Source of the DNA: an uncultured Verrucomicrobia subdivision 3 bacterium
Lineage (GTDB): Bacteria; Verrucomicrobiota; Verrucomicrobiia; Limisphaerales; UBA11358
Assembly: GCA_903875465.1 (NCBI GenBank)
Contig: CAIQWB010000045.1
Coordinates: 1 to 32,734 of the forward strand
Reading direction: 5' to 3'
Length of the DNA stretch: 32,734 nt
Shown: positions 727-2,517 of the stretch, one piece after another
Numbering within the stretch: the stretch's first letter is position 1
How the letters are laid out: each line of letters starts with the position of its first letter
Translations under genes and position numbers: made by a program
Notes under the pieces: model-generated
Database searches by the model: none
Told to the model about the DNA's origin: nothing
What the model saw: only the letters and a program-made list of their open reading frames with translations

Positions 727-2517
727 ATGGACGCAGCACATATTAGAAATTTCAGCATCATTGCCCATATTGACCATGGGAAAACGACGCTTTCTGACCG
801 GCTCCTGCACATGACCGGCACCATCGCCACGCGCGATATGTCCGACCAGTTGCTCGATGCCATGGATCTGGAGCGGGAACGGGGCATTACCATCAAGGCC
901 CACCCCGTCACGATGTTGTACAAGGCCAAAAACGGCGAAACCTATGAGCTCAATCTCATTGACACGCCCGGCCATGTCGATTTTTCCTACGAAGTGTCCC
1001 GCAGTTTGGCCGCTTGTGAAGGCGCCTTGCTGATCATCGATGCTGCCCAGGGGGTGGAGGCCCAGACCGTGGCCAATGTCCACCTGGCGATGAAGCAGAA
1101 CCTGACCGTCATCCCGGTCATTAACAAAATTGACCTCCCCCACGCGAATATCGCGATGACGAAAACGCAGTTGGAGGACATCCTCGCCATTCCGGCCGAA
1201 TCCGCTGTGCTGGCCAGCGCCAAGCAGGGGATCGGCATTGAGGATATCTTGGAGGCCATCGTGGAGCGCATTCCGCCACCCAAGCCCACCGGGGCCCCCT
1301 CCCTGCAGGCTCTCGGGTTTGACTCCTATTTCGACACCTACAAAGGCGTGGTCACCCATGTGCGCGTTTTTAATGGTGAACTCAAGGCAGGTCAGCACGT
1401 AAAATTGCTCCACTCCGGCAAATCGGTGGAGGTCAAAGAAGTGGGCAGCTTTAATCCCAAACCCTATATCCGCGACCGCTTGCAAGTGGGCGAAACGGGT
1501 TATTTCACGGCCAATATCAAAAGCCCCAAGGAAGTGAAAATGGGCGACACCGTTACGGATTCCCGTAATCCCTCGCCCGTGCTGCCCGGCTTCAAGGAAA
1601 TCCATCCGATGGTGTTCAGCGGCATCTATCCCATCAACACGGCCGACTATGAGCATTTGAAGGCCAACATGGGCAAGCTCCAGTTGAACGATTCGGCCTT
1701 TGTTTACCAGTAGGAAACCTCTGTGGCCCTCGGCTTCGGCTTCCGTTGTGGTTTCCTCGGCCTGTTGCATCTGGAAATCGTCCAGGAACGGCTCCGCCGC
1801 GAGTACGGCATGGACATCATCGCCACCTATCCCAGCGTGGTGTACAAGGTGACCCAGACCGATGGCACGGTCAAAGAAGTGGACAATCCGGCGTTCCTCC
1901 CGGACGTCACCTTTATCGACAAAATCGAAGAGCCAATGGTGCGGGCCTATGTGATTTGTCCCAATGAAAACATTGGCGACATCATGTCCCTGATCTCTGA
2001 AAAGCGCGGGGCGGTGGACCATACCGAAACGCTGGACCAGCGCCGCGTCATGCTCACCAGCTTGATTCCGCTCAACGAAATCCTCATTGATTTCCACGAC
2101 CGTATCAAAAGCATCACGCGCGGGTTTGGCTCCATGGATTATGAACACGCGGATTACCGCGTATCGGACATGGTAAAGCTGGACATGCTGGTGAATAACG
2201 AGAGCGTGGACGCGTTTTCGTGCATTGTGCACCGGGACAAAGCTGAACCGCGCGGTCGCGCCCTGGCCGCCAAGCTCAAGGAAGTCATTCCCAACCAACA
2301 GTACCAGGTTGCCATTCAAGCCGCCATCGGCGGCAAGATTGTGGCCCGCGAAAGCGTCAGCGCCTTCCGCAAGGACGTTACCGCCAAGTGCTACGGCGGC
2401 GATATCTCCCGGAAACGCAAGCTGTTGGAAAAGCAAAAAGAGGGCAAAAAGCGGATGAAAGCGTTCGGAACGGTCAATATTCCTCAGGAAGCCTTCATCG
2501 AAGTGCTCAAGGCGTGA
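727..2517 (+). CDS. lepA: elongation factor 4 (LepA/EF4), interrupted by an in-frame TAG at 1711-1713
   Basis: Translational GTPase that acts on the ribosome during elongation and 30S biogenesis. The G1 loop AHIDHGKT is at residues 13-20, followed by the RERGIT switch, DTPGHVDF (G3), NKID (G4), an SAK motif (G5), the diagnostic [13 protein letters not shown] stretch after domain II, and the LepA-specific C-terminal domain ending in a Lys/Arg-rich tail. Counting the TAG, the frame is 596 codons, the usual LepA length. The TAG falls where E. coli LepA has the YEPESSS loop (here VYQ[14 protein letters not shown]), and the same frame continues without a shift. Other genes here end in TAG (hisG, DUF2203, the 33-aa microprotein), so TAG is a real stop in this genome. 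The simplest reading is a single-base nonsense change (for example TCG to TAG) or a consensus error. An ordinary caller would split it at 727-1713 and 1723-2517. Confidence 0.9.

Follow-up and report, generated by a model that had tools for sequence, protein, structure and literature searches.

The window analyzed here is an entire contig (C45, 32.7 kb) of the source genome (G000), an assembly of 5.32 Mb in 153 contigs that is 96% complete. It contains a gene for LepA (EF4), the reading frame of which is interrupted once. From the ATG at position 727 to the TGA at 2515–2517, the sole stop within the frame is the TAG at 1711–1713, and translation through it gives a protein of 596 residues with a single X at residue 329. 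The positions of the features discussed below are summarized in Table 1. A length of 596 aa was found for 33 of the 35 aligned LepA proteins (that of the source genome and those of 34 relatives), and the two shorter ones (G004, 584 aa; G030, 564 aa) both reach contig ends. In the read-through protein, four LepA Pfam domains scored above their curated cut-offs: the EF-Tu-type GTP-binding domain (GTP_EFTU), domain 2, EFG_C, and LepA_C. Under table 11, these domains fall on two ORFs, with GTP_EFTU and domain 2 upstream and EFG_C and LepA_C downstream. The ORF reading, the 596-aa relatives, and the Pfam matches therefore bear out the original prediction of an intact lepA frame of normal length that has all its domains and a single in-frame TAG.

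Table 1. Positions of the lepA features in the window and of the tRNA-like gene elsewhere in the source genome.
Feature	Position	Strand	Remarks
lepA (EF4) frame	727..2517	+	596 codons + TGA, one interruption (TAG)
In-frame TAG, codon 329	1711..1713	+	TCG (Ser) in the three nearest relatives
Upstream ORF, 328 aa	727..1713	+	GTP-binding domain, domain 2, initial part of domain III
Downstream open stretch, 267 codons	1714..2517	+	Rest of domain III, EFG_C, LepA_C
AGGA, then GTG at 1723	1712..1725 (AGGA, 1712-1715)	+	Motif completed by the base change; possible but unsupported restart site
tRNA-like gene, tRNA-Stop (UUA)	G000:C65:43374-43451 (locus L193:15375-15452)	-	One of 42 tRNA genes

The position of the TAG within the protein differs from what had been expected. 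It had been placed in a variable loop, but a weak match to EFG_III (domain III), which covers residues 294–365 and lies below the curated cut-off, is split in its middle by the TAG, so that the stop falls in the middle of domain III and not in a linker. Likewise, the short product had been described as a two-domain protein of 328 aa, but it comprises the first two domains together with roughly half of domain III. The read-through protein matched solved LepA proteins over nearly its whole length (query residues 2–595, 1–596, and 5–594 for PDB 2ywe, 5imq, and 3cb4, respectively), and 2ywe was the best match. Among the 80 matches listed for the C part of LepA, from which records very near the window were possibly left out, the best named record was 83% identical and is titled Akkermansia muciniphila; the nearest named records in this list are mostly titled Verrucomicrobia or Verrucomicrobia groups. 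No second copy of lepA was found in the genome, the next-best hit being 37% identical. Near the start of the contig there is a 15-nt inverted repeat (positions 30–44 and 99–113, 93% complementary, 54 nt apart), and no Rfam family reached its cut-off in the window.

Codon 329 in related genomes and constraint on lepA

The collection contains 48 other genomes of the genus, of which 41 had a clear match to lepA, and the codon at the site could be read in 40. All 40 have a sense codon there, and none has TAG. The residue is Ser in 28, Ala in 7, Thr in 3, and Pro in 2. The commonest codon is TCG (17 of the 40 relatives), followed by GCG (6), TCC (5), TCA (4), TCT and ACG (2 each), and ACC, CCG, GCC, and CCT (1 each). 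The site had been described as variable, but in these relatives the column contains only these four residues. Ranked by LepA identity over the whole length, the nearest of the full-length relatives in the alignment are G043 (96.6%), G006 (89.2%), and G003 (88.7%), all of which have TCG at this position. This agrees with the original guess of TCG as the ancestral codon, which was to be checked by aligning lepA from relatives, and suggests that the TAG is most simply explained by a single C-to-A change that occurred on the branch of the source genome alone.

When the source genome is counted, LepA is present in 27 of the 28 good-quality genomes of the genus. The only quality-passing genome without a match is G026 (94% complete, 3% contaminated), which is possibly a case of real loss. 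An apparent break of lepA in another relative, G001, contains 110 N and is most simply explained by assembly gaps. Over the first half of LepA, relatives such as G033 and G021 show a higher identity than G006 (93 and 92% versus 89%), but over the second half they are more distant (82% versus 90%), perhaps owing to old recombination or uneven rates.

We also compared the two sides of the stop. Between the source genome and G043, dN and dS were 0.024 and 0.82 for the whole gene, 0.017 and 0.75 before the stop, and 0.032 and 0.93 after it; dN/dS is thus well below 1 downstream of the stop, a result that does not discriminate among the readings considered below. When the amino-acid changes were polarized with G006 and G003 as outgroups, the source branch had 3 changes before and 6 after the stop and the G043 branch had 2 and 6, with 1 and 2 ambiguous changes. 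With the G033 group as the outgroup, the corresponding numbers were 1 and 7 for the source branch and 2 and 4 for the G043 branch, with 3 and 3 ambiguous. At columns that are invariant in the other aligned LepA proteins, the source protein had no unique change before the stop and one after it, and the other 34 proteins had 0 to 3 and 0 to 2, respectively. Neither relaxed constraint nor clear decay after the stop was seen in any of these three comparisons. The similar numbers of changes on the source and G043 branches suggest that lepA was under constraint until lately, and a rough estimate by hand places the origin of the stop, if it is real, in the final few per cent of this branch's length. 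We rejected an old pseudogene with a decaying C-terminal half, given the lack of clear decay in the change counts of that half. The absence of clear decay would be expected whether the allele is very young, the TAG is an error, or the gene is still in use.

Use of TAG and search for other interrupted frames

TAG is an ordinary stop codon in the source genome. In a sample of 432,734 bases, which covers about 8% of the genome and comprises the window and 20 stretches, each 20 kb long, on five other contigs, TAG terminates 17 of 199 long ORFs, the upstream ORF of lepA being among the 17. In the window, it terminates 3 of the 24 listed genes, which confirms the earlier count of at least three others. 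Three release-factor-type frames are open in the genome, and from their motifs we take them to be RF1, RF2, and an ArfB-like protein. The RF1 frame is intact: it is an open frame of 390 aa on contig C117 with the stretch PATEAQGR, which presumably marks it as RF1. We rejected pyrrolysine at UAG, given that no PylS passed the cut-off: the single match in the genome scored 26.2 bits against a cut-off of 178.15, which 1 of 14 control genomes passed.

We also scanned the sample for stops that are flanked on both sides by 40 coding codons, with the frame the best of the six on each side. Of 2,137 stops, 27 passed this strict filter, and in 26 of these an ATG follows within 16 codons of the stop; lepA is the only one without. 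Judged by this ATG alone and not by homology, the 26 others look like ordinary gene junctions. For long ORFs, away from their ends, the power of the scan was about 90%, as 833 of 930 test positions in such ORFs passed the filter. A first pass at a score of 0.25 gave six stops: that of lepA and five others, each followed by an ATG at a distance of 1 to 4 codons. A looser scan, which required a coding score > 0.1 on both sides and made no comparison of frames, gave 70 stops, several of them without a near ATG, and lepA had the highest score among them.

Under a code in which UAG is reassigned to an amino acid throughout the genome, the lepA frame would be open. We give this explanation virtually no credence: TAG ends long ORFs and window genes as described above, the RF1 frame is intact, no anticodon CUA occurs among the 42 tRNA genes found, and the strict filter leaves no other internal TAG without a nearby ATG in the sample. 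Genome-wide recoding was rejected on the stop usage, RF1, and the tRNA survey, and the earlier view that reassignment is unlikely is supported by the stop usage, the intact RF1, and the stop scan.

tRNA genes of the source genome

The tRNA survey scored 150 of 155 first-look candidates in the 96% complete genome and yielded 42 tRNA genes. The search for a suppressor tRNA-CUA that had been proposed earlier gave none among these 42, and the only candidate for a tRNA able to read UAG is one irregular gene called UUA. Genes for tRNA-Asn (GUU) and tRNA-Ile (GAU) are absent from the 42 and were perhaps lost at contig breaks.

Matched to the Rfam tRNA model, the UUA gene scored 47.6 bits, and its unaligned anticodon stretch has 13 bases instead of 11. 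The anticodon arm is irregular in the alignment. If the anticodon is read as UUA, it is followed by a C, an unusual base at this place in tRNAs. In the source genome, the gene has a transposase-like ORF (IS1 family, 28.5 bits) close to it. Among 47 other genomes of the genus that were drawn, one (G015, 92%) has a near whole-length match; matches of 32 bases were found in G005, G042, and G033 (E 1.6e-4 to 2.9e-4), that in G033 lying at the 3' end of a tmRNA gene, and weaker matches were at chance level. Of 292 other genomes drawn from the order, three (G050, G123, and G208) matched at E 1e-6. ARAGORN called UUA for four of the five genes of this set and Val-UAC for the gene of G050. The surroundings of the gene in the source genome and in G015 are 84% alike over a block of 244 columns, and one pair of the T stem, compared by eye, differs on both sides (G-C in the source genome and A-T in G015). 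Searches of phage and plasmid collections with the gene gave no match at E 0.01, and no viral contig contained an exact 24-base pattern taken from it. It might be imagined that this gene, which lies beside a transposase gene in the source genome and is also present in a few others of the order, weakly suppresses ochre and amber codons; the cell would then tolerate stops like that in lepA and make some full-length protein, but we regard this as highly unlikely. We treat the gene as a side observation that bears little on lepA.

Interpretation of the interrupted lepA frame

The reading that we prefer, with about even confidence, is a loss-of-function allele that arose very recently. One C-to-A substitution of very recent date would have turned the TCG of Ser-329 into TAG; if the TAG is present in the organism, translation would stop inside domain III, and the cell would then make no working LepA, giving a young null allele. 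This reading builds on the TAG itself and on the findings that no relative read has it and that the gene around it is not clearly decayed, and it supposes that the base change is real and that the truncated LepA does not work. It is further favored by the lack of a second lepA, the low dN, the intact RF1, and the normal use of TAG as a stop. In the available part of one study of Escherichia coli (PMC4245954), deletion of lepA caused no obvious growth defect and LepA without its C-terminal domain failed to complement; should the base prove real, truncation with loss of function is therefore the favored mechanism. On the other hand, LepA is kept in nearly all good genomes of the genus, so that its loss would be unusual, and an error would account just as well for the lack of clear decay. 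The C part also has 7 changes on the source branch against 4 on that of G043, with 3 ambiguous (G033 group as the outgroup), although this difference is small.

A serious possibility, although somewhat short of an even chance, is that the TAG is a consensus error or a strain-mix artefact and that the organism has a sense codon and an intact lepA. The change is a single substitution without other damage, and 1.7 kb separate the site from the end of its contig, which is 32.7 kb long and belongs to an assembly of 153 contigs. Against this, the other sampled stretches (400 kb) yielded no further strict-filter stop without a nearby ATG at about 90% power, which indicates that in-frame stops made by error are at least not frequent. 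Of the three options raised in the original prediction, a consensus error and a recent nonsense mutation thus both still stand, whereas readthrough is unsupported.

Readthrough or suppression of the TAG would yield some full-length LepA and keep the gene functional, and we consider it very unlikely. It would be in keeping with the low dN/dS after the stop, but dN/dS would be equally low for a young null allele or for an error. Ochre suppressors can read UAG too, and the gene called tRNA-Stop (UUA) keeps the question slightly alive; its anticodon arm is irregular and one homologue was called Val-UAC. No anticodon CUA and no PylS above the cut-off were found, as described above, and the local RNA structure at the TAG is not unusual (z -0.85), so structure-promoted readthrough was rejected. 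The available part of Belinky et al. (2021, PMC7918605) reports in-frame stops under dN/dS < 1 as widespread across bacteria, and the stops examined there were common to two or more species, to limit artefacts; by contrast, the lepA stop is found in 0 of 40 relatives. The proposal that readthrough gives two products is not supported by the relatives or the tRNA genes, and the short product would end inside domain III.

Translation of the C part from GTG 1723 by reinitiation, with the two halves working together as a split gene, is extremely improbable. The base change does complete an AGGA seven bases before this GTG, and such a motif, within the 45 bases before GFGFRCGF, is found in only 2 of 35 lepA genes, that of the source genome included. 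The break nevertheless lies inside domain III, and a purine motif within 25 bases before the start was found in only 3 of the 14 window genes examined, from which the genome seems to lean little on such motifs. A restart at GTG 1723 was rejected on these two grounds. In one of the three genes with a Shine-Dalgarno-like motif, it is 17–18 bases away from the start.

As an ordinary nonsense allele or an error, the interruption of lepA matters little, but it is a caution against annotating the locus as two short lepA genes or as a gene with two products. If the stop is real and fixed, the source genome would represent a natural LepA-null lineage in a genus that keeps the gene in 27 of 28 good genomes, which would be of modest use for the open question of the purpose of LepA.

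In comparison with known systems, the protein resembles the solved LepA (EF4) proteins in its near whole-length similarity and its LepA Pfam domains, and differs from them in that codon 329 is a stop in the source genome. The UGA-reading bacterial tRNA-Trp reported in the available part of PMC13092985, the anticodon stem of which has 4 bp, is a different tRNA from the UUA gene and reads a different codon. The in-frame stops under purifying selection that are described in the available part of PMC7918605 share with lepA a low dN/dS on both sides of the stop, but the lepA stop is absent from the 40 relatives read, so that the same stop was not found in the orthologue of a second species. Like a young bacterial pseudogene formed by a single nonsense mutation, lepA has one in-frame stop in an otherwise intact frame, and the stop is absent in relatives. 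It differs from such a pseudogene in having no clear decay downstream, so that an assembly error looks the same; the lack of relaxed constraint after the stop is what is expected of a very young allele.
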